Below, piece by piece: positions 8,519-35,924 of a stretch of 52,297 bases of DNA. Within the stretch, counting starts at the first letter, position 1. The number at the start of each line of letters is the position of its first letter. Source of the stretch: Tannerella sp. Its GTDB lineage: Bacteria; Bacteroidota; Bacteroidia; Bacteroidales; Tannerellaceae. The notes under the pieces are model-generated. The model made no database searches, had not been told where the DNA came from, and saw nothing but the letters and a program-made list of their open reading frames with translations. A program made the position numbers and the translations under genes. Location: positions 1-52,297 of the forward strand of contig JAIROL010000223.1 of the NCBI GenBank assembly GCA_031257565.1, given 5' to 3'.

Positions 8519-8534
8519 TCAAAATTTACGCATA

Positions 8535-10616: not shown

Positions 10617-10643
10617 CAGATATTTCAAATTAAAAAAAAACTG

Positions 10644-15733: not shown

Positions 15734-17866
15734 TTAATAACCCGGATTTTGCATGGCCGCTTTTTGTTCGTCGGTAAGCTCGGAGCCGTCTTCATTCAGC
15801 AAAGCGTCAAGGAAAGTCTGCGGTATGGGGCGCAGGTTATGACGATCCTGTATGTTGGGCGACGCTTCAGGATTGAATAATTTTGTGCGTCTCACCAGCA
15901 ATTTTGTCCTGCTCAACTCTTCCCAGCGATTCCATTCGCCGTTCAATTCGCGGGTACGTTCATTGAAAATAAAGTTCAGCATACGGTCGTAATCGCCGGA
16001 AGCGCCGAGGGCGGAAAGAATAGCCTCATCTTCTGCGGGGAGCGCGCCCGGGCTTGCTATCTGTAAGGAAGAAGCGCCGGTTGTACGTTCGACGCCTGTT
16101 GACAGGTAATACGAGTTTCTGGATAAGTACACATTGCCGGCAGCATCTTTCAGGGTACCGTTATTGAAGCCCGGATGCGAGTAATTCATCCAGTCTTTAC
16201 CCGCATGCGTGGTGCCGGATCTTGCGTATGAAGTGTTATTTGTATAAATGGCATTGTTCATAAAACCAATGGAGCCTTCCACGTACAGTTCACGGTCTTC
16301 ACCGTTTTTCCATTCGGCGCGCTGACGCAGGCGGTTAACCGTTGTAATAGCGCCTGTAAAATCGTTTTTGCGCACCTGCGCTTCAGCCTTTATCAGATAG
16401 GTTTCGCCAGTGCGCGCCATGATCACATCCCGGTAAGCATTGCCGCCGTCAGCCGTACGCGTACCGTCCTGCGTTTTGTTCAATCCGCAGAATACGTTTG
16501 AACGGGAAGGATTCCCGTTGCTGCTGTAGTTGGTCAGCACATACTGTCCGTTCAAGTAAAGCGGGAAAGCGCAGGGTATCCATTTGTCGGTTTCCGGGTG
16601 GATGAAAGTACTGCCTCCGTCTACCGCGCGGCCGAATCTTCCGTAAGGCTCGCCGTTAAAACGGGCGTCGCTTTTTTTGTTGAGGATAAAAACGATTCCG
16701 ATTTCGCCTAATGCCGTCGCATGATCGCCGAACGAGTTGTTTAAAGTTGCGTTGGCTACATTGTTTATACCATATACTGTACGGAAAGATTTCCACAGAC
16801 GGGCGTCGTTCACATTGTCGTAAGTAGAATAGTTGTATTCGGTAGGCCGGCAACGCTGAAAATCGGATCCTCCGTTGAAAGGACCACGGTTTACCCAGTT
16901 TCCGCTGAAGGTATTGAATTGTGGCGTAAAATAGGAGTGGGTACGGTTTCCGAAACGCCCTTGTGTGGAAGAATTTGCATTATGCTGACAGGACATCAGT
17001 ACTTCGGTTGAAGATTCGATGGCGCAGTCGACCCCTGTCCATCGTCCGTATACGTTTACAAAGTCGCTTTCAAGAGGACATGCCGCTATTACTTCGTCGC
17101 AGAGTGAGATGCATTTGTCCAAGTCGGCGCTCTTATAGCTGCCGTTCCAGCCGTCATTGCGCTCGGAAGCTCTGTACAACAGCGACTTTGCCCAGAAATG
17201 GGCGGCCGAATATTTCGTCCATGTACCTGTGCCGCGCCATCTGTCGGTGGGAAGAAGATTGTAAGCCTGCTCGAAATCTGAAATAACGAACGCCATTGTT
17301 TCTTCGTCCGAAGCGCGCTGGAAATTGCGTACCACGCCTTCCAGCGGTTTGTCGATAAGAGGTACGCCTCCGTATTGAGCGAAAAGCCGGTAGTAGTTGT
17401 AGCCTCTCAGAAAATAGGCTTCCCCCAGGCATTTATTGCGTAAATCCTCATTGGTTATTTTGTCTGCATTAGCGATAACCAGGTTTGCATTCGCTATGCC
17501 GAAAAAGACCTGGTTCCAAAGTCCGTCGACGCCGGGACAGTTGCCGTTCGGCGCGCCGGTTGCCGTTGTCCAGTTGTTTGGCCCCAAAGCGTTGCTATAA
17601 GTATACCACGGTTCGCTGGTATTGTCATTACCAATCGAGAACTCGTCCGTTCCGACCAGCGTGTAGGCGTAAGCCCACTCGAAAGCGAAATGCCAGCGGA
17701 TATTACCGTACAGGCCGGTGGCCAGGTTAAGTATACCATCTTCGGTTTCAAAAAATTGCGTCGTATAAGCTGTGGTTTGTTCTTCGTACAGAAAATCGTT
17801 TCCGCACGAGTTGAAAGATAACATCGACGCCGCCACAAGGCTGATGATGATTACTATATTTTTCAT
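15734..17866 (-). CDS. SusD/RagB-like outer-membrane lipoprotein (rhamnogalacturonan locus)
   Basis: This 710-residue lipoprotein has signal MKNIVIIISLVAASMLSFNSC with the acylated Cys at about 21. SusD features include GDEFSIGND-like N-terminal helices, LRNKCLGEAYFLRGYNYYRL (the conserved TPR helix with FLRGY), TYLIKAEAQVRKND, NRLRQRAEWKNG, FIFNERTRELNGEWNRWEEL and the closing LRPIPQTFLDAL...NPGY. At 710 residues it is longer than the typical 500-600, with extra length in the middle, which may mean an enlarged glycan-binding face. It sits 31 nt downstream of susC and would cap that porin. From the enzymes in the locus the ligand is inferred to be rhamnogalacturonan I oligosaccharides. Confidence 0.93.
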   Translation of the reverse strand: MKNIVIIISLVAASMLSFNSCGNDFLYEEQTTAYTTQFFETEDGILNLATGLYGNIRWHFAFEWAYAYTLVGTDEFSIGNDNTSEPWYTYSNALGPNNWTTATGAPNGNCPGVDGLWNQVFFGIANANLVIANADKITNEDLRNKCLGEAYFLRGYNYYRLFAQYGGVPLIDKPLEGVVRNFQRASDEETMAFVISDFEQAYNLLPTDRWRGTGTWTKYSAAHFWAKSLLYRASERNDGWNGSYKSADLDKCISLCDEVIAACPLESDFVNVYGRWTGVDCAIESSTEVLMSCQHNANSSTQGRFGNRTHSYFTPQFNTFSGNWVNRGPFNGGSDFQRCRPTEYNYSTYDNVNDARLWKSFRTVYGINNVANATLNNSFGDHATALGEIGIVFILNKKSDARFNGEPYGRFGRAVDGGSTFIHPETDKWIPCAFPLYLNGQYVLTNYSSNGNPSRSNVFCGLNKTQDGTRTADGGNAYRDVIMARTGETYLIKAEAQVRKNDFTGAITTVNRLRQRAEWKNGEDRELYVEGSIGFMNNAIYTNNTSYARSGTTHAGKDWMNYSHPGFNNGTLKDAAGNVYLSRNSYYLSTGVERTTGASSLQIASPGALPAEDEAILSALGASGDYDRMLNFIFNERTRELNGEWNRWEELSRTKLLVRRTKLFNPEASPNIQDRHNLRPIPQTFLDALLNEDGSELTDEQKAAMQNPGY

Positions 17867-17897: not shown

Positions 17898-20800
17898 TCA
17901 GAAACTGATTTCGAGTCCCAGGGTTACCCCGCGATTGTAGAACGATACCGATTCGCCCAGGTCAAGATCCAGAAAATCGATCGACGAGTAAATATTACCC
18001 GGATTACGCAGTTGTCCGTATACTTTCAGGTTATTGAGGCCTATCCTGTTACAAATTTTGTTCGGCAAATAGTATCCTAACGATATATTCCGCATTTTAA
18101 TGTAGGACGCATCTTTGAATCCAAGCAAACCGGAATAGGGGTCAAGACTTGAACCCGGCGTACCCGTATAAATCGGTTTCTGATAATCGGCGTTCGTATT
18201 ATCGGGTCGCCAATAATTGATTGTACGCTGGTTACTTACGGCTCCCTGCGCTTCGCCGCCGGTAGAAACCATGTAGCCCATGCGTCCGTTCATCTCGATG
18301 TTTAACTCAACGTTCTTGTATCTGAAAGAGTTGCTCCAGCCTAAGGTCCACCTTGGCATGCGATTGCCCAGTACCACGCGGTCTTCTTCATTCATGATGT
18401 AATCGCCGTTCTTGTCGACGGGTTTTACCATACCCGCAGTGAATTTTTCGCCTTTTTCATTGAATTTTGCCATTTCCGCAGCATCTGATTCCTGCCATAA
18501 TCCGTCAGATTCATAACCATAGTAAACACGAATGGATTGGCCGATGAACCAGCTATTATCCACCATGTCGTTTTTACCATATGCAAGCTCGACTATTTCA
18601 TCCTTTTGCCATGCCGCGTTTAAGTTGGAAGTCCATGTAAAATCGCGCGCGTCTACAGGGATAAATCGCAGGGAGACGTCTACGCCGTGATTCTTTGTTT
18701 TTCCTACATTTGCCATGGTACTGGAATAGCCGGTGATAGTCGGTATCTTCATATCCATTATCAAATCGTCGGTATTGGACATGTACAGGTCTATACTACC
18801 GCCTATGCGTCCTTTCAATATGCTGAAGTCCACGGCAAAGTTCCACTGGGTCGTTTTTTCCCAACCGAGTTGAGAATTTGCCATTTTAACATTATCGCTC
18901 CAATAGTAAGGCTCATTGGGCACGTAAAACAGCACATCCGATTGTCCGCCGAAAGGAGCGTAATTTGAACGGATATTTCCCAGGGTAGCATAGGCGTCAA
19001 TGGCTGAATTTCCCGTCACGCCTACGCCTGCGCGCAGTTTGAGTTGATGCAGCCAGTCCACGTCGCTCAGGAACGATTCCTGCTCCATACGCCAGCCTAA
19101 AGCCGCGCTTGGGAAGAATGCCCATTTGTTGCCTTCGGCCAACTGCGAAGCGCCGTCGTAGCGTCCCGAAACGGTGAGCAGGTATTTTTCCATCAGCGAG
19201 TAATTGAGCCTGTATCCGTACGACACGAGCGCTTTTTCAGCCAATCCGGTTGAAATACTTACTTTTGCCGATGCATCCGTAACACTTACCGCCCCCATGT
19301 TATTCCACAGGTAGCTGGCTTTCGGTACGTTTTCTTCGCTCATTCTGGCTGTTTCTGCGTTGTATTGGCTTGCCGAGTGTAATAAGGTGACGTCGAACTT
19401 ATGTATATCAATGGTTTTATTGTACGAAATCACATTGTCTAATACCCAGCAAAATCTACGGTCGTAGTCCCAACGGGCGTAGTTTGTTCCGCCGCCGCGC
19501 GTGGCGGAATTCTGGTCAAGATAGATACCCTGGCGGTGGAAACGCATATCGGATCCGAAGCTTGTTTTGTAATTTAATCCGTCCAGGGGTTTCCACATTT
19601 CGCCTATATTGAAGTTTGCATAGCCATTTCCGAGCAAACGCAACACCTGACGGTCGTCTTTGGAATACTTCCATTCGTCTATAACAGTATAAACGCCGTT
19701 TATGCCTCCGGGAGATTGTATAATATCGCCGTTTTCATCATAAGGCGTCGTCCAGTTGGGAATAGCTTTGGCTGCGTTGTATATTTCAGTGGGGCCTGAG
19801 GTGGAACTCTGCCCTGTACGGGAGTATCCGTAGTATTGGTTGCTCCATGCCGCGTTTACCGAGCCGCCTAACGTAAACCAGTTAACGGGGGTGATATCGA
19901 CGGTGGCTGTGAGATTGTATCGTTCATAGGATTGTCCTTTTTGCGTACCTTCATTGTTGAGGTATCCTATCGAAAAGAACGATTTCATTTTGTCCGTTCC
20001 TCCGCCGGCGCTCACGGTATGCTCCTGCGATATACCTGTCTGTGAAGCAAGGTCTGCCCAGTCGGTATTGGTTACTTTCGAGGGATCCCATGTTCCGCTT
20101 GCCCAGCCTTTCATCACATTATCCAATGCGGCAGGGTCGGATGAAGCGAAGATTGACATGTCCTGTTCTTTGTTTGGCTGGTTGCCGGGCGCAAATGCTT
20201 CGGGATTTGCGTTGTGGTACGCCCATCTGCGCCAGGTAATATACTCGCTTGCACTCATCGAGGGTTGCAGGTCGTGAATTTTTTCAAAGCTGACCGTTCC
20301 GGAGTAGTTGAGATTGAGCGCGCCTGTTTTTCCTCTTTTGGTTGTGACGAGTATAACGCCGTTTGCTCCGCGCGAACCATATATGGCTGTAGAAGAAGCG
20401 TCCTTCAAGACATTGATGCTTTCAATATCCTTTGGGTTCAGGGCTTCAATACCCCCCGAACTCAGCACGATACCGTCCACAACGTACAACGGGTCATTTA
20501 AATCATCATCAAGCGAGCGCATGCCGCGTACCCTTATCTTTCCCAGCTCGCCCGGGCGTTGATTGGAGGTAACATCTACTCCCGCCGCTTTTCCCTGCAG
20601 CGCTTCCATCGCGTTGGATACCGGTCTCATCGTAAGATCCTTTGAGGATACGACAGCCACGGCGCCCGTCACATCGCTTTTTTTCTGAACGCCGTATCCA
20701 ATCACGATCACCTCGTCGAGCGCTTGCGTATCTTCCTGTAACTGAATTTGCAGGTGCGTTTTTCCGGCAACAGAGACTTCCTGCGAAAGGTATCCGATGT

Positions 20801-21062
20801 AGCTTACCCTTATTTTGGCGCTTTCCGCCACGTTAGACAATCTGAAATTACCGTCCATGTCGGTAATGATGCCGTTTGTTGTTCCGACAACAATGACGTT
20901 TGCGCCTGTTACGGGTTCGCCCGTCTCATCGAGAATAATACCTGTTACTGTTTTACTTTGGGCAAAAGCGACGATCGTCGCTAATGAAAACAAAGCAGTA
21001 AACATCAGTCCGGATAATAACCTGCCGACTGATTGTCTTTCTTTTTTTTGACTGTTTTCCAT
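17898..21062 (-). CDS. SusC/RagA-like TonB-dependent outer-membrane transporter (rhamnogalacturonan locus)
   Basis: This 1054-residue protein has a signal peptide (hydrophobic 19-34, ending AFAQ), a carboxypeptidase-regulatory-like domain (about 37-110: VTGIILDETGEPVTGANVIV), a TonB-box-like stretch LDEVIVIGYG (115-124), a plug domain (SALEG-type AMEALQGKAAGVDVTSN, VLKDASSTAIYGSRGANGVI) and a 22-strand barrel ending with an aromatic residue (GLEISF). It lacks an N-terminal STN domain, unlike the SusC at 35925, so it is not expected to signal through an anti-sigma factor. It is the first gene of a - strand operon with susD and the PL11-GH105 gene, and its promoter carries the shared operator at 21157-21191. 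Confidence 0.95.
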   Translation of the reverse strand: MENSQKKERQSVGRLLSGLMFTALFSLATIVAFAQSKTVTGIILDETGEPVTGANVIVVGTTNGIITDMDGNFRLSNVAESAKIRVSYIGYLSQEVSVAGKTHLQIQLQEDTQALDEVIVIGYGVQKKSDVTGAVAVVSSKDLTMRPVSNAMEALQGKAAGVDVTSNQRPGELGKIRVRGMRSLDDDLNDPLYVVDGIVLSSGGIEALNPKDIESINVLKDASSTAIYGSRGANGVILVTTKRGKTGALNLNYSGTVSFEKIHDLQPSMSASEYITWRRWAYHNANPEAFAPGNQPNKEQDMSIFASSDPAALDNVMKGWASGTWDPSKVTNTDWADLASQTGISQEHTVSAGGGTDKMKSFFSIGYLNNEGTQKGQSYERYNLTATVDITPVNWFTLGGSVNAAWSNQYYGYSRTGQSSTSGPTEIYNAAKAIPNWTTPYDENGDIIQSPGGINGVYTVIDEWKYSKDDRQVLRLLGNGYANFNIGEMWKPLDGLNYKTSFGSDMRFHRQGIYLDQNSATRGGGTNYARWDYDRRFCWVLDNVISYNKTIDIHKFDVTLLHSASQYNAETARMSEENVPKASYLWNNMGAVSVTDASAKVSISTGLAEKALVSYGYRLNYSLMEKYLLTVSGRYDGASQLAEGNKWAFFPSAALGWRMEQESFLSDVDWLHQLKLRAGVGVTGNSAIDAYATLGNIRSNYAPFGGQSDVLFYVPNEPYYWSDNVKMANSQLGWEKTTQWNFAVDFSILKGRIGGSIDLYMSNTDDLIMDMKIPTITGYSSTMANVGKTKNHGVDVSLRFIPVDARDFTWTSNLNAAWQKDEIVELAYGKNDMVDNSWFIGQSIRVYYGYESDGLWQESDAAEMAKFNEKGEKFTAGMVKPVDKNGDYIMNEEDRVVLGNRMPRWTLGWSNSFRYKNVELNIEMNGRMGYMVSTGGEAQGAVSNQRTINYWRPDNTNADYQKPIYTGTPGSSLDPYSGLLGFKDASYIKMRNISLGYYLPNKICNRIGLNNLKVYGQLRNPGNIYSSIDFLDLDLGESVSFYNRGVTLGLEISF

Positions 21063-21126: not shown

Positions 21127-21191
21127 CAAAAAAACATAAAAAAAGATTCAGACAAAATGAAAAATTGTACAAATGCATAGAATATTATCCC
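21127..21191 (-). promoter_or_regulatory. susC promoter with shared direct-repeat operator (site 1)
   Basis: On the - strand, two half-sites lie 20 bp apart: GGGATAATATTCTAT (21191-21177) and TGTACAATTTTTCAT (21171-21157). After a 22-nt spacer comes TTTTTTTG (21134-21127), a 5/6 match to the -7 consensus TAnnTTTG. The layout is the same as at the three other promoters of this locus (21227, 24052, 24152). Direct repeats placed over the -33 region fit an AraC-type activator such as a hybrid two-component system; the regulator gene is not in the window. Confidence 0.65.
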
Positions 21192-21226
21192 CGTATTTTC
21201 CCGATAGGGACCGGCGTTATTTCAGG

Positions 21227-21292
21227 TGTATTATATTCGGGTTATTTGTACGATTTTCCATTGGCGCGAATGTTGTATAATTTATATTTTTG
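21227..21292 (+). promoter_or_regulatory. Promoter of the GH105 gene with shared direct-repeat operator (site 2)
   Basis: Half-sites TGTATTATATTCGGG (21227-21241) and TGTACGATTTTCCAT (21247-21261) start 20 bp apart. The -7 element TATTTTTG (21285-21292) is an exact TAnnTTTG match, 23 nt after the second half-site and 41 nt before the ATG. TTGG at 21261-21264 could serve as a poor -33. The site is divergent from site 1, and both lie in the 271-bp gap between susC and the GH105 gene. Confidence 0.65.
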
Positions 21293-21333
21293 GCCTCTCA
21301 AAATGTTAAATTTATAATTTTAATAAAATAACC

Positions 21334-22470
21334 ATGAAGAAAATTGTATTGTCTTTATTTCTGATTTTTTCTTTAGGAGTTAACTCCATTCCGGCGAGTG
21401 CGCAGCAACTTCCTGATAGAAGAGAGGTTTTAAAAACGCTCATACTTACCAATGATTATTTCATGAAAAAATATGCGGATTATACCTGGCCGTCCCATCG
21501 TGGCGGAGTGATGCGCCCCAGTAATATCTGGACGCGCGCGGTTTATTACGAAGGACTGATGGCGTTACATACCATATATCCGCTTCCGGAATATTATGAT
21601 TATGCCTATAACTGGGGGAAATTTCATGAATGGGGTTTTCGCAGGGGCAATACAAACCGTAATGCGGATAATCAATGTTGCAGTCAGGTTTACATAGATC
21701 TGTATAATCTATGTCCGGATCCGAATGTGCTGAAGAACGTTATTATTAATACGAACATGTTTTTAAATACGCCGCAGAATGACGATTGGACATGGATTGA
21801 CGCCATTCAGATGAGTATGCCCGTGTTTTCAAAGATGGGTAAGCTTACCGGTGATCAGCGGTATTTTGATAAGATGTGGGCGATGTACCATCATATCCGT
21901 AACATCGAAGGCAAAACCGGTCTGTATAATCCGAAAGACGGACTCTGGTGGCGCGATAAGAATTTTGTTCCTCCTTATAAAGAACCGAACGGAGAAGATT
22001 GTTACTGGTCGCGCGGTAACGGATGGGTTTATGCAGCCTTAGCGCGTATACTGGAAGATATTCCGCAGAACGAAACCCATCGTGCAGATTATGTTGCAGA
22101 TTTTCTGGCGATGAGTAAGGCTTTGATAAAATGTCAGCGCGAAGACGGTTTCTGGAATGTAAGTTTGCATGATCCGAATAATTACGGCGGAAAAGAAACT
22201 ACAGGAACGGCGCTTTTTGTATATGGAATGGCCTGGGGGATAAATCATGGAATCCTGGATCGTAAAACCTGTTTACCTGTTGTCTTGAAAGCATGGGACG
22301 CTATGTGTAAAGAGGCTGTTCATCCGAATGGATTCCTGGGTTATGTACAGGGAACCGGGAAAGAACCAAAAGACGGTCAGCCGGTTACTTATGACAAGGA
22401 GCCTGATTTTGAAGATTACGGATTGGGATGTTTTCTTCTTGCGGGTACGGAAATATATAAATTGAAATAG
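21334..22470 (+). CDS. Unsaturated rhamnogalacturonyl hydrolase (GH105)
   Basis: This 378-residue enzyme has a signal peptide (ending ASAQQ, residue 25) and one (alpha/alpha)6 barrel. Landmarks are TWPSHRGGVMRPSNIWTRAV, the catalytic block WTWIDAIQMSMPVF with Asp156 as probable general acid, YWSRGNGWVYAALARIL, and the closing FEDYGLGCFLLAGTEIYKL. GH105 enzymes hydrate the 4,5-double bond of unsaturated galacturonic acid at the end of oligosaccharides made by rhamnogalacturonan lyases and thereby release it. Two other GH105 domains are in this locus (12632-15598 and 22638-23954); they share little beyond the fold, so they may act on differently decorated ends. It has its own promoter and double terminator. 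Confidence 0.92.
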   Translation: MKKIVLSLFLIFSLGVNSIPASAQQLPDRREVLKTLILTNDYFMKKYADYTWPSHRGGVMRPSNIWTRAVYYEGLMALHTIYPLPEYYDYAYNWGKFHEWGFRRGNTNRNADNQCCSQVYIDLYNLCPDPNVLKNVIINTNMFLNTPQNDDWTWIDAIQMSMPVFSKMGKLTGDQRYFDKMWAMYHHIRNIEGKTGLYNPKDGLWWRDKNFVPPYKEPNGEDCYWSRGNGWVYAALARILEDIPQNETHRADYVADFLAMSKALIKCQREDGFWNVSLHDPNNYGGKETTGTALFVYGMAWGINHGILDRKTCLPVVLKAWDAMCKEAVHPNGFLGYVQGTGKEPKDGQPVTYDKEPDFEDYGLGCFLLAGTEIYKLK

Positions 22471-22513
22471 TTTTTTTTGTGAGGTAAAAGATTTGAGGTT
22501 ATTATTAAAAGCG

Positions 22514-22560
22514 ATACAACTATTGATCCGGCAAACGAGATCAATAGTTGTATTCATTTT
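22514..22560 (+). terminator. Intrinsic terminator 1 after the GH105 gene
   Basis: A 15-bp perfect inverted repeat (22514-22528 with 22539-22553, arms ATACAACTATTGATC and GATCAATAGTTGTAT, 10-nt loop) is followed by TCATTTTTAA. It lies 44 nt beyond the stop of the + strand GH105 gene. Its 3' arm and tail are part of a 37-bp segment that is duplicated downstream. Confidence 0.8.
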
Positions 22561-22652
22561 TAACGGACTAATAGAATCTTGGCAACTCCGTCATTTATCA
22601 TAAAAACACATCCGGAGTTGTATTCATTTTTAACGGACTAATAGAATCTTGG
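22546..22652. repeat. Pair of 37-bp perfect direct repeats
   Basis: The same 37 bases, starting AGTTGTATTCATTTTTAACG and ending AGAATCTTGG, occur at 22546-22582 and 22616-22652. The second copy contains the stop codon and last codons (PRFY) of the convergent GH105 gene at 22638-23954; the first copy is a duplicate of that gene end lying outside it. Each copy supplies the tail of a hairpin whose stem differs. Confidence 0.9.
22583..22630 (+). terminator. Intrinsic terminator 2 between convergent GH105 genes
   Basis: CAACTCCG (22583-22590) pairs with CGGAGTTG (22613-22620) around a 22-nt loop and is followed by TATTCATTTTT, the same tail as terminator 1. The tandem arrangement would insulate the two convergent GH105 genes. 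Confidence 0.65.
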
Positions 22653-23954
22653 GGCGGTGCGTATCATTTTCAGTACTTCGCTGCCGGCAAGAATAACGGG
22701 GCCATACCCGTGCGCTGCGTTGACATTTGTCGGTCGCCGGTAATAGAACCCCGGTTCATAAGCCACTCCCGTGCCTACGCACGTACCTTCTACTTCGCCC
22801 TGCTCGTTAATTCTCGTAGATACCGCCTTCCAGGCAGCTACCGCCGAAGGGCCAAATGCCTGTATATCTACCCATCCTTCATTAACGGCATGTGCAACAA
22901 CGTATGCAAATATCGCCGTTGCGCTCGTTTCGGTATAGGAATCGTTGCGATCGAGAAGCTGATGAAAGAATCCGTCGCCGCCCTGTAATGCCATAAAACC
23001 GTGAATCTGCTCAAGAAGTAATGCCGTAATCTCAGGACGTTTGATATGGTCGGGCGGGAGTATGTCCAGTACGTCGCTCATGCACAACAATGCCCAGCCG
23101 TTTGCCCTGCCCCAGAACAGGGATGGGTGATAGGTCATCGACTCGATCCAGCTATGTTTGAAAAGTTTCATTTCGGGAACCCAGAGATATTTTTTGAACA
23201 ATTCAATCTGGAGCGCTGCTTCGTTATAATATTTTCCGGCAAGTACCGAATCTTCTTTTTCAACGAGTTTACCCATATAAGCGATAGGAGGAATACCCAT
23301 ATACATATCGTCTACCCACAGCGAATTGACGGTTGGGCGTAACCGTGCAAGTGTTCTGTCGGGGAGGCGATGCTCTTTATTCATCGTAAAGTCAAATGTA
23401 CAATCTATTATCGGGCGAAGCTTGGTCGCCAGCGCCGGATTGGCCAATACACCCTTGACAAAGGCGGCCTGCATCGAACCGCAATCGTCGAGCCATATCG
23501 GAGCTATCAGACCCCGTAAAGCGCTTTTTCCCGTTTCATTATTTACTTTTACAAAATAGGGATAAATATCCCCAATAAAATTGAATCGCTCGTAAACATA
23601 GTCGGTATAGCGTTTGTCTCCTAAAATATCCGCAGCGCGAAGCATCGACGAATAAGTTACGCCCCATTCGTAGGTGAGCAGACCGAAACGCCCTTGTTCG
23701 AGCGCCGTGCCCGCATTGATTTTTTTATAATCGGTAACAGGCGTTTGCGTCTCGCGGTCGATTAATCGGGGCGGGGTATTGGCGTTGAGAAAATCGAATA
23801 CCCGATCGAGGTCGGTTTTAATAGACGAAAGTAATGGATTTTCAGCCGGTCTTTGTTCTGCTCCTTGTCCTCTTCGTTGCGGAGTTTGCGCCTGTGCAGC
23901 CAATATTGCAAAAGTACAAATGGCCAAAATTGTCGGTAATCTTTTGAATTTCAT
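22638..23954 (-). CDS. GH105 family unsaturated glycuronyl hydrolase
   Basis: This 438-residue protein starts at 23954 (MKFKRLPTILAIC...) with a signal peptide ending AAQAQ near residue 23. An upstream in-frame ATG at 24113 would add 53 residues over the promoter and operator, so it is rejected. The fold is an (alpha/alpha)6 barrel; landmarks are LTYEWGVTYSSML, WVDDMYMGIPPIAYMG with the catalytic Asp at 215 or 216, and FWGRANGWALLCMSDVL, followed by GDGFFHQLLDRNDSYTETSA. It is expected to remove unsaturated galacturonosyl residues from lyase products. It is not closely similar to the GH105 at 21334, so a distinct substrate end or compartment is likely. Its promoter shares the locus operator. 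Confidence 0.9.
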   Translation of the reverse strand: MKFKRLPTILAICTFAILAAQAQTPQRRGQGAEQRPAENPLLSSIKTDLDRVFDFLNANTPPRLIDRETQTPVTDYKKINAGTALEQGRFGLLTYEWGVTYSSMLRAADILGDKRYTDYVYERFNFIGDIYPYFVKVNNETGKSALRGLIAPIWLDDCGSMQAAFVKGVLANPALATKLRPIIDCTFDFTMNKEHRLPDRTLARLRPTVNSLWVDDMYMGIPPIAYMGKLVEKEDSVLAGKYYNEAALQIELFKKYLWVPEMKLFKHSWIESMTYHPSLFWGRANGWALLCMSDVLDILPPDHIKRPEITALLLEQIHGFMALQGGDGFFHQLLDRNDSYTETSATAIFAYVVAHAVNEGWVDIQAFGPSAVAAWKAVSTRINEQGEVEGTCVGTGVAYEPGFYYRRPTNVNAAHGYGPVILAGSEVLKMIRTAPRFY

Positions 23955-23987
23955 AGACGTTAAATTTAAAATAAAAATAATCGAATA

Positions 23988-24052
23988 CAAAAGAACATAA
24001 ATTAAGTTTATGCGGAAATGAAAAATTGTACAAATGCATGGAATTTTATAGT
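23988..24052 (-). promoter_or_regulatory. Promoter of the second GH105 gene with shared operator (site 3)
   Basis: On the - strand the half-sites ACTATAAAATTCCAT (24052-24038) and TGTACAATTTTTCAT (24032-24018) start 20 bp apart. The second half-site is identical to that of the susC promoter. TTCTTTTG (23995-23988), a 5/6 match to the -7 consensus, follows after 22 nt, 33 nt before the start codon at 23954. Confidence 0.62.
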
Positions 24053-24151
24053 CGCATTTTTTGTTTTTGATGAAAAATAAAAATATACATGGAAATTTTG
24101 TGTAAAAATCCATAGTTATAAAGGGTTCTGTTATTGTTTTTAAACGTATTT

Positions 24152-24216
24152 TATACGATTTTCTATTATTTTGTACATTTATCTATTTCACGGATGCAGT
24201 ATAAATAATAATTTCG
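24152..24216 (+). promoter_or_regulatory. Promoter of the GH2-CE12/GH28 operon with shared operator (site 4)
   Basis: Half-sites TATACGATTTTCTAT (24152-24166) and TGTACATTTATCTAT (24172-24186) start 20 bp apart. TAATTTCG (24209-24216), one base off TAnnTTTG, follows after 22 nt. The ATG used is 24279. The arrangement repeats sites 1-3. Confidence 0.65.
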
Positions 24217-24278
24217 CCCCTTGAAGTTAATAGTTATTGAAGTTAATAGTTATTTATGGTCGAGTAAACTATATTGAA

Positions 24279-27200
24279 ATGAAAAATGTCCATCATCTGC
24301 GTTTGTTTATTTGCTTGTTCGCAGGAATCATGTCCGCCTCCGTAATGTACGGTGAAAACAATCGTGATTCCGACATTTTGGACATATCCGGAAGATGGCA
24401 GTTTCAGATAGACAGGAATGATGAAGGCGAGCGGCAGGGATGGTTTAACCGCGCGCTGAACGATTTCATCTTTCTTCCCGGTTCAATGCCGGAAAAATTA
24501 AAAGGCGACGATGTTACGATACATACGCAGTGGACCGGTAGCTTATACGACAGTTCTTACTTTTTTAATCCGGCAATGGAAAAATACCGTGTGGAAGGGA
24601 ATGTCAAATTGCCGTTTTTCCTTACTCCGGATAGACATTATGTAGGGGTGGCATGGTATCAGAAAGAGATCTACATACCCTCTGAATGGAGAGGACGACG
24701 AATCGTGCTGTTTCTCGAAAGGCCGCATATAGAAACGACAGTGTGGATAAACGGGCAAAAAGCCGGTATGCGGAACAGTCTTTGCGTACCCCATGAATAT
24801 GATATAACATCCTGTATATATAATAATGTAGAGAAGATGTCGGGTAAGTCCCGCATTACGGTTCGTGTGGACAATCGTATAAAGGAGATCAACGTAGGTC
24901 CTGATTCTCACAGTATAACGGACCAGACGCAGGGCAACTGGAACGGAATCGTGGGGCGGATGGAGTTATTTGCCACATCAGATACTCATATAGATGATGT
25001 GCAGGTATTTCCGGATCTTGCCGGCAAATCGGCAAAAGTCCGTGTGCATATAAAAAGTAATAAGTATAAAAGCGCGAAAGGAACGATTACTGTATCTGCA
25101 AAGAGTTTTAATTCGCCCAACCCCCATACGGTACTGCCTGTAACGACCGCTTTCAATCTGACAGACGGCGTTTGTGAAGCGGAAATACTCTTGCCGATGG
25201 GAGAAGATATGCAGACATGGGATGAGTTTGATCCGGTATTGTATCGTTTAAGAGTATCGTTTGCAGTAGAGAAAGATAAAGGAGAACATGAGGCGCAATT
25301 CGGAATGCGTGAATTTAAGATTCAGGGTAAATGGTTTTATGTGAACGGAAATAAGACGATGCTCCGCGGTACGGTTGAAAACTGTGATTTCCCGCATACG
25401 GGCTATGCGCCGATGGATGTGGAATCGTGGGAAAGGGTTTTTCGTATCTGCCGTAGCTATGGACTAAACCATATGCGTTTTCATTCCTGTTGTCCGCCGG
25501 AAGCCGCTTTTATCGCGGCTGATCTGGTTGGTTTTTATCTGCAGCCCGAAGGGCCGAGCTGGCCCAATCACGGTCCGAAGCTTGGGATGGGACAGCCGAT
25601 CGATAAATACCTGATGGAAGAGACCCAACGCCTGACGAAGGCGTATGGTAATTATGCCTCGTATTGTATGCTGGCATGCGGCAATGAGCCGGCCGGCCGT
25701 TGGGTCGAGTGGGCGACCGACTTTGTCGAATATTGGGAGAAGACAGATCCGAGACGCGTTTATACGGGAGCCTCGGTGGGAAATAGCTGGCAATGGCAGC
25801 CACGCAGCCGGTACCATGTGAAAGCCGGCGCTCGCGGATTGGATTGGGCCGTCCGTCCTCCCGAATCAATGACGGATTATCGTTCCCGTATTGACTCGGT
25901 AAAGCAGCCTTATGTTTCGCATGAAACCGGACAATGGGTCGTATTTCCCAATTTTGACGAAATCAAAAAATATACCGGAGTAAACAAAGCGAAAAACTTT
26001 GAAATATTCCGCGATATACTTTCGGAAAACAATATGGGAAATCTTGCCCGCGACTTTGTCATGGCTTCCGGAAAACTACAGGCTCTTTGTTATAAACATG
26101 AGATAGAAAAAACGTTACGAACGCCCGATTATGCGGGATTTCAACTGCTTGCCCTGAATGATTATTCCGGTCAGGGGACGGCTCTCGTCGGATTGACGGA
26201 TGTTTTCTTTGATCCGAAAGCGTATATAAGCGCTGCCGATATGCGCCGTTTCTGTAGTCCGACCGTACCGTTGGCGCGTATCCCTAAATTCACCTATACT
26301 AACGGCGAAACATTTCGCGCTGATATTGAAGTTTCTCATTTCCGTAAAAAACCGTTGAAAAATGCGCGTGTGGCGTATGTTATACGAAATGCGTTCGGCG
26401 GGATTACCGGAAAAGGCGTTATTAAAGATTCGTCGGACAAGATCGCAGGCGGGAATACGGATATTCCGGTTGGAAACTGCACGGAACTGGGAAAAGTCAT
26501 TTTTGATCTTAAGGATTTAAAGGCTCCGGCGCGTTATAACCTGGAAGTCCGTATTGAAAGCGAATCTCTTAAAGATGAAGAATATACCGAAGTTGTCAAT
26601 GACTGGGACTTCTGGGTCTATCCGTCCGTGGCGAAACCTGAAGCAGGAGACGTTTTTGTAACGGATTCCCTTGATGAAAACGCGATACAGGTTTTAAACG
26701 GCGGAGGAAAAGTATTAATTACTGCAGCAGGGAAAATCCGTTTTGGGATGGATATCGTACAACATTTTTCTCCTGTATTCTGGAATACGTCCTGGTTTAA
26801 GATGCGTCCGCCGCATACGACGGGGATACTTGTAAATGAGCGTCATCCTGTATTCGACGGATTTCCGACCGAATATCACAGTAATCTGCAATGGTGGGAA
26901 TTGTTGAATAAACAGCAGGCGATGCAGTTTACGGAATTTCCGGCGGATTTTCAACCGCTCGTACAGAGTATTGATACCTGGTTTATTAGTCGTAAAGCCG
27001 GTATGATGTTCGAGGCAAATGTATTGAACGGCAGATTGATAATGACAAGTATGGATATTACAAGCGATGGGGAGAAGCGTATTGTGGCGCGCCAGATGTA
27101 TAAATCGATACTGGATTATATGCGGTCGGATCGTTTCCGTCCCGCCTCGACGCTTGCTCCCGAACTGATCGGTTCCTTGTTTACAAAAGACGCTCCGAAA

Positions 27201-28499
27201 GTGAATATGTACGCCAAAGATTCTCCGGACGAGTTGAAACCGGTAAGAACGACGGTTCGCCCTAAAGACGCCTATTATTTTAGTTTTGACGGCGCTTCGA
27301 AATTATCGGAAACGGAATGTCGGCAGGTCTCCGGCATGTATACCGATGAAGCCGGATATGGCTATGATTTGCAGACGAAATGGGAGGAAGGAAGTAATAA
27401 GCCGTTCTATTTCTCCGTAGCCGTTCCCGACGGGAATTATAAAGTGACTGTTCGCGTTGGCTCTGCGACAAAAGCGGGCGTGACAACCGTTCGTGGCGAA
27501 TCGCGTCGTTTGTTTATCGAAAACCTGCCGACCGGAAAGGGAGAATTTAAGGAATGCGCCTTTGTTATCAATAAACGTAATACCCGGATATACCCGGATG
27601 GCGAAAGCGTTCGCATAAAACCCCGTGAAAAAAATAAACTGAACTGGGATGATAAGCTGACATTTGAATTTAACGGCGATGATCCTGCCGTATCGGAAAT
27701 TCTCATAGAAAAGGAAAATGACGCTATTACTGTCTTTTTATGCGGCAACTCGACTGTTGTCGATCAGGATAACGAACCGTGGGCGAGTTGGGGACAAATG
27801 ATCCCGCGCTTTTTTAGCGCTCCGGTCAGTTTTGCTAATTATGCGGAATCCGGAGAGTCTGCCAATACTTTTATCGCAGCCGGTCGTTTAAAGAAATTAC
27901 TGACACAGATGAAGGCCGGGGATTATCTGCTTGTGGAATTCGGACATAACGACCAAAAGCAGAAAGGAGAAGGAAAAGGGGCGTATACGTCATTCACGGA
28001 AAGTCTCAGAACATTTATACGCGAGGCCCGCGCCCGCGGAGCGCAACCTGTTTTTGCGACCCCCACGCAACGCCGGAGTTTTGATGAAAAAGGACGGATA
28101 ATAGATACGCACGAGGATTATCCGGATGCGATGCGTAAACTGGCGCAGGAGGAAAATGTGCCGTTGATAGATATTCATGCTATGACGCGCACCTTATATG
28201 AATCGCTTGGCGTTGAAAATTCCAAAAAGGCATTTGTGCATTATCCCCCTGACACATGGCCGGGGCAGACGAAGGCGCTGGAAGATAATACGCATTTCAA
28301 TCCTTACGGAGCTTACCAGATAGCAAAATGTGTCATTACAGGCCTGAATAATCTCAGTAAACAAGGGTTTCAACTTGATTTTATGGAATATCTGAGCGAT
28401 GATTATATGCCCTATAGTCCGTCGCTCCCGGATCCTGTGAAATCGTTCAAGTGGAATCCGAGTCCTTTTACCGAAGTGGAGAAACCGGATGGAAATTGA
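24279..28499 (+). CDS. GH2 glycoside hydrolase fused to CE12-like rhamnogalacturonan acetylesterase
   Basis: The protein has 1406 residues. The ATG at 24279 precedes a signal peptide (MKNVHHLRLFICLFAG...); the TTG-start extension at 24237 is not favoured. Residues of about 30-800 are a GH2 enzyme: jelly-roll (GVAWYQKEIYIPSEWRG), then a TIM barrel with acid/base Glu470 (ACGNEPAGRW) and nucleophile Glu549 (SHETGQW). Residues of about 810-960 look like the glutamine-amidotransferase-like module of some family 2 enzymes (VLNGGGKVLITAAG). About 1000-1145 is a carbohydrate-binding beta-sandwich. About 1150-1390 is an SGNH esterase: GNSTVVD (Ser1158), EFGHNDQK, and DNTHF (Asp1336, His1339). It probably removes a side-chain sugar and backbone acetyl groups from rhamnogalacturonan. 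Sugar specificity is not determined. Confidence 0.9.
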   Translation: MKNVHHLRLFICLFAGIMSASVMYGENNRDSDILDISGRWQFQIDRNDEGERQGWFNRALNDFIFLPGSMPEKLKGDDVTIHTQWTGSLYDSSYFFNPAMEKYRVEGNVKLPFFLTPDRHYVGVAWYQKEIYIPSEWRGRRIVLFLERPHIETTVWINGQKAGMRNSLCVPHEYDITSCIYNNVEKMSGKSRITVRVDNRIKEINVGPDSHSITDQTQGNWNGIVGRMELFATSDTHIDDVQVFPDLAGKSAKVRVHIKSNKYKSAKGTITVSAKSFNSPNPHTVLPVTTAFNLTDGVCEAEILLPMGEDMQTWDEFDPVLYRLRVSFAVEKDKGEHEAQFGMREFKIQGKWFYVNGNKTMLRGTVENCDFPHTGYAPMDVESWERVFRICRSYGLNHMRFHSCCPPEAAFIAADLVGFYLQPEGPSWPNHGPKLGMGQPIDKYLMEETQRLTKAYGNYASYCMLACGNEPAGRWVEWATDFVEYWEKTDPRRVYTGASVGNSWQWQPRSRYHVKAGARGLDWAVRPPESMTDYRSRIDSVKQPYVSHETGQWVVFPNFDEIKKYTGVNKAKNFEIFRDILSENNMGNLARDFVMASGKLQALCYKHEIEKTLRTPDYAGFQLLALNDYSGQGTALVGLTDVFFDPKAYISAADMRRFCSPTVPLARIPKFTYTNGETFRADIEVSHFRKKPLKNARVAYVIRNAFGGITGKGVIKDSSDKIAGGNTDIPVGNCTELGKVIFDLKDLKAPARYNLEVRIESESLKDEEYTEVVNDWDFWVYPSVAKPEAGDVFVTDSLDENAIQVLNGGGKVLITAAGKIRFGMDIVQHFSPVFWNTSWFKMRPPHTTGILVNERHPVFDGFPTEYHSNLQWWELLNKQQAMQFTEFPADFQPLVQSIDTWFISRKAGMMFEANVLNGRLIMTSMDITSDGEKRIVARQMYKSILDYMRSDRFRPASTLAPELIGSLFTKDAPKVNMYAKDSPDELKPVRTTVRPKDAYYFSFDGASKLSETECRQVSGMYTDEAGYGYDLQTKWEEGSNKPFYFSVAVPDGNYKVTVRVGSATKAGVTTVRGESRRLFIENLPTGKGEFKECAFVINKRNTRIYPDGESVRIKPREKNKLNWDDKLTFEFNGDDPAVSEILIEKENDAITVFLCGNSTVVDQDNEPWASWGQMIPRFFSAPVSFANYAESGESANTFIAAGRLKKLLTQMKAGDYLLVEFGHNDQKQKGEGKGAYTSFTESLRTFIREARARGAQPVFATPTQRRSFDEKGRIIDTHEDYPDAMRKLAQEENVPLIDIHAMTRTLYESLGVENSKKAFVHYPPDTWPGQTKALEDNTHFNPYGAYQIAKCVITGLNNLSKQGFQLDFMEYLSDDYMPYSPSLPDPVKSFKWNPSPFTEVEKPDGN

Positions 28500-28531: not shown

Positions 28532-30028
28532 ATGAAAGAGAAAATGAGGTACGGTAGAAAAGATGAATTTCTGTTTTTGGTTATTTTATGTATCCTTTGC
28601 AGTTGCGTGGAGAAACAGCCGGTTTTGCCGGCATTTGAATGGATGGACGAACAGGAACGTCCTGATATCTCCTGGATCAATCAGGTCGGAGCAAGAACTG
28701 TTCCCGGTAAGGATTTCTTTTCCGTAAATGATTATGACGCCGTTGGCGATGGCGTTACTTTTTGCGGAGATGCGATACAGAAGGCTATTGACGTATGCCA
28801 TGATTCGGGAGGCGGAACCGTTACGTTTGAGCCGGGCGTTTATTTAACAGGCGCAGTGTTTGTGAAAAGCGGGGTAAACCTTTGCATAGGCAAAGGGGTT
28901 ACTCTGCTCGCAATACCGGATAGCGCCGCATATCCTGAGATACAGACGCGTATTGCCGGTATTGAAATGATGTGGCCTGCCGCCGTTATAAATGTGATCG
29001 ATCAGCAATACGTATCCGTGAGCGGGGAGGGCCTGATTGATTGTAAGGGGGAAGTATGGTGGGATAAGTACTGGGCTATGCGTAAGGATTACGAACAGCG
29101 CGGATTACGATGGATAGTCGATTATGATTGTAAACGTGTACGCGGTATGCTTGTTTCCAATAGTTCGGATGTTACATTGAGCGACTTTACGCTTATGCGA
29201 AGCGGGTTTTGGGCTATTCAGATTTTATATTCCTGCTATTGTACGGTTAATGGCGTTACGATCAATAATAATGTGGATGGAAAACACGGACCGAGTACGG
29301 ACGGTATCGATATCGACTCTTCGGCGCGCATACTGATTGAGAATTGTACGGTAGACTGCAATGATGACAATATATGCCTTAAAGCAGGCCGTGATGCGGA
29401 TGGGTTACGTATAAACCGTCCCACGGAATACATTGTGATACGCAATTGTATATCCCTGAAAGGAGGCGGATTGATAACATGCGGAAGCGAGACGTCCGGC
29501 GACATCCGGAACATAGTCGGTTATGACCTGAAAGCTTATGGAACATCGAATCTTTTACGCATAAAATCGGCTCTTAACCGTGGAGGTATCGTCGAGAATG
29601 TTTATGTAACGGATGTGGAGGCTGATAGCGTTAGAACTGTTTTTTCCGTGGATCTTAACTGGAACCCGAGTTATAGTTATTCGACATTGCCGGAAGAATA
29701 CGAAGGAAAAGATATTCCCCCGCATTGGAAAACGATGCTGACAAAAGTGGAACCGGCTGAAAAAGGATATCCCCGTTTCAGGAAAATTTATTTATCAAAT
29801 GTAAAATCTACAAATACGGGTACTCTTATTCATGCTTCCGGATGGAACGAATCATTGAAAATAGAAGATATGGGCGTTTATAATGTAGTTGCAGACGCCA
29901 AATCCGGAGGTCGTATAAAATATTCGGATAATTTTCGTTTGAAAAATATTCGGCTGACAACCGGCAATCGTGCTGTTTTTGAGAACAATACGGGTCTTGA
30001 AGAAGACATAGCGTACAAAGGGCTATAA
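28532..30028 (+). CDS. GH28 polygalacturonase/rhamnogalacturonan hydrolase-like lipoprotein
   Basis: This 498-residue right-handed beta-helix enzyme has a lipoprotein signal (LCILCSC, Cys at about 25). It starts 33 nt after the GH2-CE12 gene and is in its operon. The GH28 active-site acids are visible: Asp257 in STDGIDID, and Asp278 and Asp279 in NDDNICLK. RIKSA near residue 343 is the usual substrate-binding RIK. The histidine of the canonical GHG motif is missing: the matching block reads GGGLITCGSE. This divergence, and the neighbours, favour a rhamnogalacturonan or decorated-galacturonan substrate over plain polygalacturonan. The enzyme would hydrolyse alpha-1,4- or alpha-1,2-linked galacturonic acid with inversion. 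Family is certain, exact substrate is not. Confidence 0.88.
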   Translation: MKEKMRYGRKDEFLFLVILCILCSCVEKQPVLPAFEWMDEQERPDISWINQVGARTVPGKDFFSVNDYDAVGDGVTFCGDAIQKAIDVCHDSGGGTVTFEPGVYLTGAVFVKSGVNLCIGKGVTLLAIPDSAAYPEIQTRIAGIEMMWPAAVINVIDQQYVSVSGEGLIDCKGEVWWDKYWAMRKDYEQRGLRWIVDYDCKRVRGMLVSNSSDVTLSDFTLMRSGFWAIQILYSCYCTVNGVTINNNVDGKHGPSTDGIDIDSSARILIENCTVDCNDDNICLKAGRDADGLRINRPTEYIVIRNCISLKGGGLITCGSETSGDIRNIVGYDLKAYGTSNLLRIKSALNRGGIVENVYVTDVEADSVRTVFSVDLNWNPSYSYSTLPEEYEGKDIPPHWKTMLTKVEPAEKGYPRFRKIYLSNVKSTNTGTLIHASGWNESLKIEDMGVYNVVADAKSGGRIKYSDNFRLKNIRLTTGNRAVFENNTGLEEDIAYKGL

Positions 30029-30622: not shown

Positions 30623-33600
30623 TCAGTCTAAAACTTTTATGCGGGCATAAGGGCGTATTATCACCGGTCCTAATAAACCTGATGGTAGTAGTTGGGAGTC
30701 TTTACCCCAATGTCTCCATGTGGTAAACGTGGTACGTTCCGATGGACGTGGATTATTATTCAACAACCATTCAGGCCATTGCTTAACTTGCAAACCATTC
30801 CATTTAAAGTCTCCGGCTAAATGTTCATCTCCAATCAGGCGGTTTGGCCATAGATTTGTTATTCTCACTTCGAGGTCGTTCACTCCTTCACGGACAGCAT
30901 CATCCAGATTAATTCTGAATGGGGCTTTCCATAATGTCCCTAGATTTTTCCCATTAACGAAAATCTCTGCAATAACGTTGACATTTCCCAAATCCAGTTC
31001 CAATGAATGTTCCTGCCTGATAATTTTCTTCGAAAGTTTAAATTGCTTTCGGTATGTGATCGTACCAGAGAAGTAGCGTATTCCGTTATCTTGAGAGGTT
31101 GTCCACGAGGCTAATTCATCGAAAATTGTTTTTGTCGGCTCTCCTTGATTTGATGGAAGACTTACGTCCCATGATCCGGTTAGGGAAATAGGATCAGATA
31201 TTGATTTTACCTGAATTGTTTTTGTTTTATTTGAAGATGTCTGATATGTCATCTTTCCCGGGTATGGAGTTTTCCAGATAATCGTATTTCCCTCTTTCTC
31301 AAATACAGGGAAAGGAATATCCCGGGTAAGACGCAACATTTGTCCCTCAGGAACAGATATATTATAGACCGTACCCTCGGTTGAGTAGCTAATACGCAAT
31401 TCTCTTTTCTGATTCGGTTTTGCTGTAACTCCAATCAATTGTTCATCTATCATAATTTCCCCGATGCCGGAAGACACTTTCATCTTTATTTGTTCTGTAA
31501 CATCGTATGTAGGATAACTTGAAGGAACATTATGTATTTCTTTGTCAAATTTACCATATACAACTTTTAGAATTTTCAAATCGCCTCCATTATCAGACTG
31601 AATTTTAACAGGTTCTCCTTCTATTGCACGAATTTCTTTTTGTTTTCCTCCAATCTCGATCTCGAAGCGAAGTTCTTTTATGTATCCTTGGGCCGGATCT
31701 AATGAACTAAGATGGCTTCCCGCATGTATATTGAGTTTGTTGTCGTGTACGTTATTTGCAACAACTTCTGTTACGTCAACCAAACCTTTAGGTAAGAAAG
31801 CGCCAAATTCAGCCTTTATTATCTGCAAGTCGGGAAGTATTTCTTTTGGTGGAGTATTCAATTCTATTGTAGCAGAGCAGATATGCTCGGTAGCTGCTTT
31901 TCTGAAAACAACGAAAGCAGATCCTTCAATATCAAATTGAAGAGGGATACTGGTAGTCCCATCTTTGTTTTTATTCCATAGGGAGATGTCTCCAATTTTG
32001 CCGGTTATAGGATTCCACAATTCAGGTTGTTTCCCTGCCACACGAAAACGGCATATTACCTCACGACTTTCTTTCTTCGAGTTTGTTATAAAATAGATAT
32101 CTGCATCTCCTCCAACCCTCCTATGAATAAAATTGATGTCATCACAAGCTGTAGTTTCCAAAGAAAAATCCGGCGGAAAGTCTCCTTTTTTGAGAACATC
32201 TACTATGTCTCTATCCTTTATTTTACCAGTATCCCATAGCTTCTTAGTCAACCGGATTATCGTTTGATCACACTGGGGATAATGCTTGAGACTTGGAGAT
32301 TTCAGCGGCTTAGTTCCTATTATCGTAGCGCCAGTGTTTGCCAGTTTTTCTATGATCGACAGCGCCTCCGGAGTCATCCAGTCGGTTTCGGGAAGCACAA
32401 GAATTCTGTATTTTCCCCCTGTGGCATTACAAATAAAACCATTTTCTACTTTTAGCGATGCTAATTTATTTGCCCCAATCAGGTCATAGTCATAGCCTAA
32501 TGACTTTATTTCAGGCATTAAGAGGGCGTCATTAGGAGAGGATTCTCCTATGAAGACCAGCAAATCTGCAACATTCTGGCCTTGTTGAAGAAGAAATTGG
32601 GATCGTCCGATATAATCCATGTATGCTTTTCCTTGTTCCCACCAAGTGTTTAAACGGTTCAGATCAAATCCATAATTACCGAAAGTAACTCCCGGCTTTT
32701 CATTCCATGGTTGATGTGCATAGGTATGAAATATAAAACGGGTGACGCCTTCAGCCCACGCCCGATCCCCAATAGACTTTATGGTTGCCGGATGATTGAG
32801 CCAACCTCCATTGCCGGTAAATGCTTCTGCTCCCACAATTGGACTTCCTTCCAGATGAGCAATGGAAGCCACAAATTTGGGAGAATCGAAAAAGGCTAAA
32901 TCACCACTCCAAAACTCACACATCACGATATCTCCTTTTTCACCAACCTGCATGCTGTTGAAAGGTCCCCAATAAGGTTCTATCGACAATATCAGCCCAT
33001 TTTGATGGCAGAGTTCTCTAAAATAACCATAGTAATTCTCAGCTATCAAGTCGCCGACCGTTTGCCTGAAATCCCAAAGGAAACGTTCTGTCACCTCGCC
33101 ATTATCTACATAATATCCGGCTAAAGCAGGTAAAAAACATCTGCAATCATATCCTCTAAAACGTTTAAACTCTTTTTCGAAATCAGCTGTCCAGTTTGTA
33201 CAACCGGCTTCGTAACTATCAAGAATACAATTTGTAAGGGTCGAACTTACGAATGAGCCCAATTTGTCTATAACTGGTTTTACTGCATTTTTCCAATGTA
33301 CATCAACTGCTTTTTTATTCATTTTGTCACATTCCAGACCTCTTCCTTCAGCTACAGCCGGATGGTTTTCTGCCCCCGTAGGAGTATATCCCAGTCGCAG
33401 GATGACCCATTCCCCGTCAGGAGCTTTCCATTCTAGAGAACCTTCTTCTGACATTAATGAGGTTAAATCTACTATTTTAGACTTGTCAATTAAAGCAGAT
33501 TTGGGTACCTGTTTCATGTCGGGATCTAAATGATTCCGGAATCTACCCGACAATGTTTTTATGTCCAAATCATCTATCCGTTCTTTACTCTGTGGCTTAG

Positions 33601-34111: not shown

Positions 34112-34145
34112 GTATTGCAAAAATCATTGAACTATGAAAATGAAA

Positions 34146-34181
34146 ATAAATACCGGCATTAATATTAATACCGGTATTTAT
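34146..34181 (-). other. Hairpin immediately after susD of the rhamnosidase locus
   Basis: An 11-bp perfect inverted repeat (34146-34156 with 34171-34181; ATAAATACCGG and CCGGTATTTAT, 14-nt loop) fills the susD-GH106 gap and abuts the susD stop. As after the susD at 15734, a hairpin here could stabilise the upstream susCD message or lower read-through into the enzyme gene. Confidence 0.6.
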
Positions 34182-34185
34182 ATAA

Positions 34186-35911: not shown

Positions 35912-35924
35912 GTCTCCAATGTTT

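Follow-up and report, generated by a model that had tools for sequence, protein, structure and literature searches.

In this study we describe a direct-repeat sequence shared by four promoters in a draft genome of Tannerella sp. (GCA_031257565.1; 4.47 Mb in 294 contigs, here G000), which is probably the operator of a hybrid two-component system (HTCS) acting on rhamnogalacturonan genes. The window, meaning the whole stretch of DNA that was analysed, is one complete contig of 52,297 nt (JAIROL010000223.1, here C228). It carries two divergent promoter pairs with the repeat, at ~21.1-21.3 kb and ~24.0-24.2 kb. An earlier note on this DNA had reported the repeat in these four promoters, and our analysis confirms the observation: eight 15-bp half-sites lie at the positions and on the strands given below, their starts are exactly 20 bp apart in each pair, and 22-23 nt separate the second half-site from a box similar to the -7 element TAnnTTTG (E values are from the profile scan described further below).

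21177..21191, minus strand: promoter A, upstream half-site GGGATAATATTCTAT
21157..21171, minus strand: promoter A, downstream half-site TGTACAATTTTTCAT (E 2.2e-12)
21127..21134, minus strand: promoter A, -7-like box TTTTTTTG, gap of 22 nt from the second half-site
21227..21241, plus strand: promoter B, upstream half-site TGTATTATATTCGGG
21247..21261, plus strand: promoter B, downstream half-site TGTACGATTTTCCAT (E 4.7e-12)
21285..21292, plus strand: promoter B, -7 box TATTTTTG, gap of 23 nt
24038..24052, minus strand: promoter C, upstream half-site ACTATAAAATTCCAT
24018..24032, minus strand: promoter C, downstream half-site TGTACAATTTTTCAT (E 1.1e-12)
23988..23995, minus strand: promoter C, -7-like box TTCTTTTG, gap of 22 nt
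24152..24166, plus strand: promoter D, upstream half-site TATACGATTTTCTAT
24172..24186, plus strand: promoter D, downstream half-site TGTACATTTATCTAT (E 7.8e-9)
24209..24216, plus strand: promoter D, -7-like box TAATTTCG, gap of 22 nt

The sequence TAnnTTTG is exact in one of the four boxes and has one mismatch in the other three; in promoter A an alternative one-mismatch box, TATGTTTT, lies at 18 nt downstream. The period of 20 bp places the half-sites two helical turns apart, as the earlier note had it, and its further statement that they lie over the -33 region is plausible only. The following genes start from, or follow on from, the four promoters.

17898..21062, minus strand: gene K, SusC-like transporter, first gene from promoter A (Pfam Plug, CarbopepD_reg_2)
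15734..17866, minus strand: gene J, SusD-like lipoprotein (Pfam SusD_RagB)
12632..15598, minus strand: gene I, PL11 rhamnogalacturonan lyase fused to a GH88/GH105-type hydrolase (Pfam RGL11_C, RGI_lyase, Glyco_hydro_88)
21334..22470, plus strand: gene L, GH88/GH105-type hydrolase, from promoter B (Pfam Glyco_hydro_88)
22638..23954, minus strand: gene M, second GH88/GH105-type hydrolase, from promoter C (Pfam Glyco_hydro_88)
24279..28499, plus strand: gene N, GH2-type enzyme fused to a GDSL esterase, from promoter D (Pfam Glyco_hydro_2_N, Lipase_GDSL_2)
28532..30028, plus strand: gene O, GH28 polygalacturonase-like enzyme (Pfam Glyco_hydro_28)

Pfam finds SusC, SusD and the PL11-GH88/105 fusion on the side of promoter A, and the families encoded from promoters A-D fit rhamnogalacturonan breakdown. 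Genes N and O probably form one operon. For gene M the ATG at 23954 was chosen over the start at 24113 in the list of open reading frames (ORFs), since 24113 would take in promoter C; for gene N the ATG at 24279 was used, the ORF list having a TTG at 24237. Further to the right lies a second locus with a GH106 rhamnosidase, SusD and SusC (30623-39299, minus strand), and beside it an ECF sigma factor with a FecR-type anti-sigma factor (39441-41099, minus strand). The earlier note had stated that there is no regulator in the window and thereby overlooked this pair; Pfam revealed no further one on the contig.

When the consensus of the earlier note was searched as a strict pair, allowing 3 mismatches at most, the site at 24152 was the only one of the four to be recovered (shuffle mean 0.00). 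A looser pattern made from the four sites was searched in the whole genome and gave four matches without mismatch, these being the window sites, none with one mismatch, 2 with two mismatches and 11 with three. The backwards control gave 18, so in this search no match apart from the four sites stands out. With leave-one-out matrices the left-out sites scored 31.1, 23.6, 27.9 and 16.4, against 14.2, 16.6, 15.6 and 14.4 for the best non-site in the window, and the margin was thinnest for the site at 24152 (16.4 against 14.4). Whereas the loose pattern showed nothing more, a fifth site emerged with a sequence-only profile extending over the -7 region. It is based on 18 sites from other genomes in the genus; matrices and patterns derived from the window sites had served to find them, so that the scan of our genome is held out, yet not wholly independent. 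In the 4.47-Mb draft the window sites take ranks 1-4 (E 1.1e-12, 2.2e-12, 4.7e-12 and 7.8e-9). Rank 5 is a site at C158:5161 (E 1.9e-4) before genes for a glucuronoyl-esterase-like protein and a PL4 rhamnogalacturonan lyase; the counterpart esterase-PL4 operon in the related genome G034 likewise has a site. These five are the only own-genome sites at E 1e-3 or better. The remaining 38 of the 43 own-genome rows have E values of at least 0.0028 and are mostly partial matches, and we do not count ranks 6 and below as members of the regulon. ORF maps were viewed for ranks 5-30 and the neighbouring protein families checked at two of them, both of which were rejected: at C215:22674 the half-sites are, by eye, 18 bp apart and point away from a nearby SusC-type gene, and C155:15440 stands before a tRNA-modification gene.

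It might be possible that the shared sequence is due to the window's ECF sigma/FecR pair, apart from which Pfam gave no regulator pair on the contig, or to some general feature of promoters. We consider this very improbable. The profile scan found no operator at the SusC/SusD locus that belongs to the ECF/FecR pair (best other match on C228: E 4.2), the motif is a direct repeat above a box of primary-sigma type, and a general promoter element is excluded by the fact that just five sites in the genome reach E 1e-3. The neighbouring SusC/SusD-GH106 locus itself seems to be under a different kind of regulator, of the ECF sigma/FecR type.

The repeat is kept in related genomes. Orthologs of gene N are found in G034 (90% identical), G033 (81%), G002 and G021 (78%) and G039 (77%). 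In G034 the repeat stands before the counterparts of K, L, M and N, before the esterase-PL4 operon and before another SusC gene; in G039 before K and L; and in G033 before N. Divergent repeat pairs occur in G002, G022, G008 and G021, the plus-strand member in G022 being without a following plus-strand gene on the stretch examined. Mean pairwise identity in half-sites 1 and 2 is 76% and 82% for the promoter of K (4 sequences), 69% and 94% for L (6 sequences) and 96% and 91% for N (3 sequences). For comparison, the values are 31-53% over the 40 bp upstream and 43-58% over the 20-nt gap. The promoter of M is less informative, with two close sequences and a gap that is itself 85% identical. The consensus half-site of the genus is TGTACRATTTTCCAT, present twice and mostly 20 bp apart (19 or 21 bp in a few related sites); the consensus over both half-sites is TGTACAATTTTCCAT, where the sixth base is often G. 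In 19 of 24 aligned sites a TTTG in the frame of the -7 box is found at offset 21-23, and at the other 42 offsets combined it is found 5 times; two alternative readings in G002 were dropped from this set, and the sites were chosen without use of the -7 box. A third half-site is present at several sites (C158, G002, G001 and G037), and rows of three half-sites at steps of 20-21 bp lie at L095:5141-5195, L099:5403-5457, L259:6001-6055 and L261:6310-6366.

Run on the genome and its relatives, the profile scans found matches before further pectin genes, not in random DNA, so that the outcome which the earlier note had named as refuting, a paired motif as frequent in random intergenic DNA as near pectin genes, did not arise. 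Across the genus, 10 of 41 genomes have matches at E <= 1e-3 (28 rows), and of the 10 rows outside the training set 9 stand directly before genes of pectin loci. These ten comprise the five own-genome sites and the following.

G016:C120: before the series GH88/105, SusC, SusD, PL4, PL11, esterase (the first gene begins above the site in the ORF list, at an alternative start)
G016:C74: before a GH28 gene
G039:C183: before a PL11 gene
G011:C212: before a GH88/105 gene
G034:C207:5124: no gene of at least 100 aa before the next site

In the family, under stricter filters (E <= 1e-4), 9 of 123 genomes have sites, all of them in the same genus, and no matrix score above 12.2 was found on the stretches with distant homologs of gene N (G071, G077 and G054). 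Hence the exact motif seems to be confined to the genus. Promoters A and C have a 20-bp core in common, GCATTTGTACAATTTTTCAT, and the genes include related hydrolases, so one could suppose that the four promoters are alike merely through recent duplication or chance in AT-rich DNA. There is only a slim probability of this: orthologous promoters keep the motif in species whose proteins from these genes are 64-95% identical, while their flanks are kept much less, and further sites stand at C158 and, held out from training, at pectin loci in G016, G011 and G039.

HTCSs are a major class of glycan-gene switches in Bacteroides (PMC11253607). Ravcheev et al. 2013 (PMC3878776) predicted direct-repeat operators for 16 B. 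thetaiotaomicron HTCSs, on average 21 bp apart. For HTCS_Rgu-2 (BT4178/BT4182; locus BT4145-83) the prediction is two 14-bp sites with a 6-bp spacer, and for HTCS_Rgu-1 (BT4111/BT4124) two 12-bp sites with a 9-bp spacer, giving a period of 21 bp as against 20 bp in the window (PMC3878776). Our system is like HTCS_Rgu-2 in having a rhamnogalacturonan locus, a 20-bp period, an AraC-type HTCS and a distant member of the regulon (PMC3878776), the comparison covering the layout; it is unlike it in that the HTCS of our genome lies on a contig other than that of the main locus. HTCS_Rgu-1 represents the class with experimental DNA binding: a protein of the receiver and DNA-binding parts of BT4124 shifts the bt4114 promoter in gels (PMC11253607), and the SHIP residues that this work names at the inhibitory interface are also present in the C187 HTCS of our genome, described below, and in its G039 ortholog. 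Primary-sigma promoters of Bacteroides have TAnnTTTG at -7 and TTTG at -33 (PMC7366714); the window promoters are like them in having such a box at a near-fixed distance below the operator, and unlike the consensus in that three of the four boxes are off by one letter. Consistent with the Ravcheev-type predictions, we found a direct repeat with a period close to 21 bp (20 bp in all four window sites), kept before orthologous polysaccharide-utilization genes, and, in the candidate regulator, the expected domains joined in one chain.

Which protein reads the repeat? In G039 an HTCS of 1432 aa is encoded ~660 bp beyond SusD, in the very locus where the orthologous operators lie. The corresponding ortholog in our genome (G000:C187:49870-54138, 77% identical) lies on a different contig from the window, with GH106 on one side and a GH88/105-GDSL gene on the other, away from the main SusC/SusD locus. 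This HTCS has Reg_prop, Y_Y_Y, HisKA, HATPase_c, Response_reg and HTH_18 domains in one chain. Further orthologs of this C187 group occur in G033 (83% identical to the G039 HTCS), G034 (78%), G021 and G008 (77% each), and all 6 genomes with a C187-group HTCS (77% or more) have sites. Upstream of the GH88/105-GDSL neighbour of C187 (L092:16982, minus strand) CGTACAATAATCCAT and TGTACGCAAATATAT form a pair with a 20-bp period, followed after 22 nt by TTTCTTTG. In the wider group of related HTCSs (~970 bits or more), 8 of the 12 genomes with such a protein have sites compared with 2 of the 29 without (G002 and G022), which over the 41 genomes of the genus gives a Fisher p of 1.9e-4, related genomes not being independent. 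The repeat is also found within 500 bp upstream of 5 of 7 wider-group HTCS genes from genomes without training sites (two in G001 and one each in G037, G007, G011, G016 and G028), with scores of 12.4-26.5. Upstream of 16 other HTCSs of our genome the best score is 8.0 (Mann-Whitney p 0.0013). A two-turn repeat as in the published HTCS layout, matches before pectin genes and an HTCS group tied to the repeat together support the HTCS reading, so that an AraC-type activator of the hybrid two-component kind, as the earlier note had suggested, is the best-supported reader. Judging from sequence, we consider it probable that the repeat is the operator of an HTCS of rhamnogalacturonan genes and that its likeliest reader in our genome is the protein at C187:49870-54138.

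Several observations weigh against this assignment. G039 is the only genome in which sites were seen directly linked to an HTCS of the C187 group; no repeat lies upstream of the C187 or G039 HTCS gene itself, and the pair at L092:16982 (minus strand) has a genome-wide E of only 0.31 (rank 18), which is suggestive and not significant. On the stretches examined of the HTCS contigs of G033, G034 (C164), G021 and G008 no convincing pair was found. G002 and G022 have strong sites and no group HTCS was found in them (drafts 86% and 83% complete), and G016 and G011 have sites and only a paralog of 39-40% identity. Two of the 7 training-independent genes, G001:C179 and G016:C74, score 2.3 and -1.9; the HTCS gene at G016:C74 reaches 14.8 at the wrong spacing, and a profile site stands before the GH28 gene on its other side. 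Among the group genes of training genomes G034:C143 is weak (9.99), and C250, C390, C187 and G039 score about 1.0 or less. The upstream score is ad hoc, the gene starts of the 16 control HTCSs are approximate and related genomes are not independent. The -7 zone is 47-62% identical, column-wise not clearly above the gap, with an offset that varies by a base. Regulator and target locus may also just travel together. Co-localisation of the HTCS gene with susC/susD genes holds for the ortholog in G039 and, among paralogs, for those of G011, G007 and G034:C143. No SusC/SusD homologs are among the listed ORFs of the C187-group contigs of G033, G034 and G021, and that of G008 has a SusC beside an ECF/FecR pair. 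As the C187-group contigs of four genomes have no site near the HTCS, our confidence in C187 was lowered and that in a paralog raised.

The same kind of operator might accordingly be read here by another HTCS of the wider group, or by several paralogs. The closest candidate is C250 (C250:6476-10687), the next own paralog with 46% identity to the G039 HTCS, which falls in the same tree group and lies beside a SusC/SusD pair. More than one group HTCS is encoded in G034 (at least three) and in G001 (two), the sites of G016 and G011 accompany the 39-40% paralogs, and a shared motif was proposed for the paralogs BT4111/BT4124 and BT4178/BT4182 (PMC3878776). However, neither C250 nor its counterpart G034:C390 has the repeat upstream of its gene, their second helix differs from that of the C187 group (KDPHYFSRSFK instead of NDPFYFSKCFK), and matches of the C250 type (46-47%) are listed in G000 and G034 only, while sites occur in 10 genomes. 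On balance we regard reading by C250 or another paralog as rather unlikely, and reading by C187 as preferable. Just after the C250 and C390 HTCS genes, and before SusC, a similar half-site pair was seen in reversed orientation (L093:9803 and L180:13848, both minus strand).

In a quick tree the 16 rows from relatives form one group (SH-aLRT 100) apart from 14 other HTCSs of our genome (L078, L087 and L096 were left out); since the selection of these rows took the best matches to the G039 HTCS, this proves little by itself. The label 'site' needs three changes on the tree, and it mixed 'site beside HTCS' with 'site in genome'. The two segments that we take to be the AraC-type helices, one of them presumably reading DNA, are nearly identical (GRTxFYKKVKG and NDPFYFSKCFK) in the C187 group and in the paralogs G001:C172 and G037. 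They differ in G034:C143 and G007 too, and the G011 protein is cut before the AraC domain. It is conceivable, if doubtful, that a group of HTCS paralogs (37-47% identical) keeps similar helices together with one operator word, TGTACRATTTTCCAT at 20-21 bp, and that several sensors with diverged sensing domains converge in this way on one rhamnogalacturonan regulon with members across the genome. At C158 and in G002, G001 and G037 the third half-site could enable more than one dimer to act.

If the repeat is indeed the operator of the C187 HTCS, its periplasmic propeller sensor would detect a rhamnogalacturonan oligosaccharide and the fused kinase would phosphorylate the receiver. An HTCS dimer might then place one AraC-type domain on each half-site, both on the same face of the DNA at a distance of two turns. 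The downstream domain would lie ~22 nt from the -7 box, beside or over the -33 region. From there the HTCS could bring polymerase, together with the primary sigma factor, to promoters that mostly lack a perfect -7 box; the one-letter departures in three of the window boxes are as we would expect of activator-dependent promoters. Targets of the C187 HTCS, reached in trans, would include the four promoters of the window and the esterase-PL4 operon at C158.

We regard the system as a new member of a switch type that is already known. In the open-licence literature searched we did not find the window operator, the regulator assignment or the regulon, and a word search of PMC12596196 gave no mention of HTCSs or hybrid two-component systems; the predicted HTCS operators that we found in print are from Bacteroides (PMC3878776). 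An observation on raw sequence has led to a candidate regulator, a consensus and a regulon that spans two contigs or more. For a lineage represented here by metagenome-assembled genomes it has also given a testable recognition code, helices against half-site letters, and pairing helix changes with half-site changes across paralogs could help to predict other HTCS operators. The third half-sites and the periods of 19 or 21 bp at some sites are possibly worth attention as well.

Some further features were noted. A recurring element around TTTCATGTGTACATT in several stretches of our genome was rejected as an operator, overlapping start codons including that of the SusD gene Q. An element like AATGTACACATGAAACGAACATG is found around start codons in L086, L087, L088, L089 and L092 and at 35799-35833 of the window (SusD gene Q), and we take it to be a leader or ribosome-binding context that these genes share. 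Upstream of gene N, the leader that follows promoter D contains a tandem duplication of GAAGTTAATAGTTATT (24223-24254). Between the convergent genes L and M a stretch of ~37 bp, AGTTGTATTCATTTTTAACGGACTAATAGAATCTTGG, is present in two copies 70 bp apart (22546-22652), the second of which overlaps the end of gene M. Finally, directly adjoining the rhamnogalacturonan genes are five clustered sulfatase genes (1166-12518, plus strand), interspersed with genes for thioredoxin-rhodanese and Cons_hypoth698 proteins and preceded by a SusD-type part at the start of the contig.

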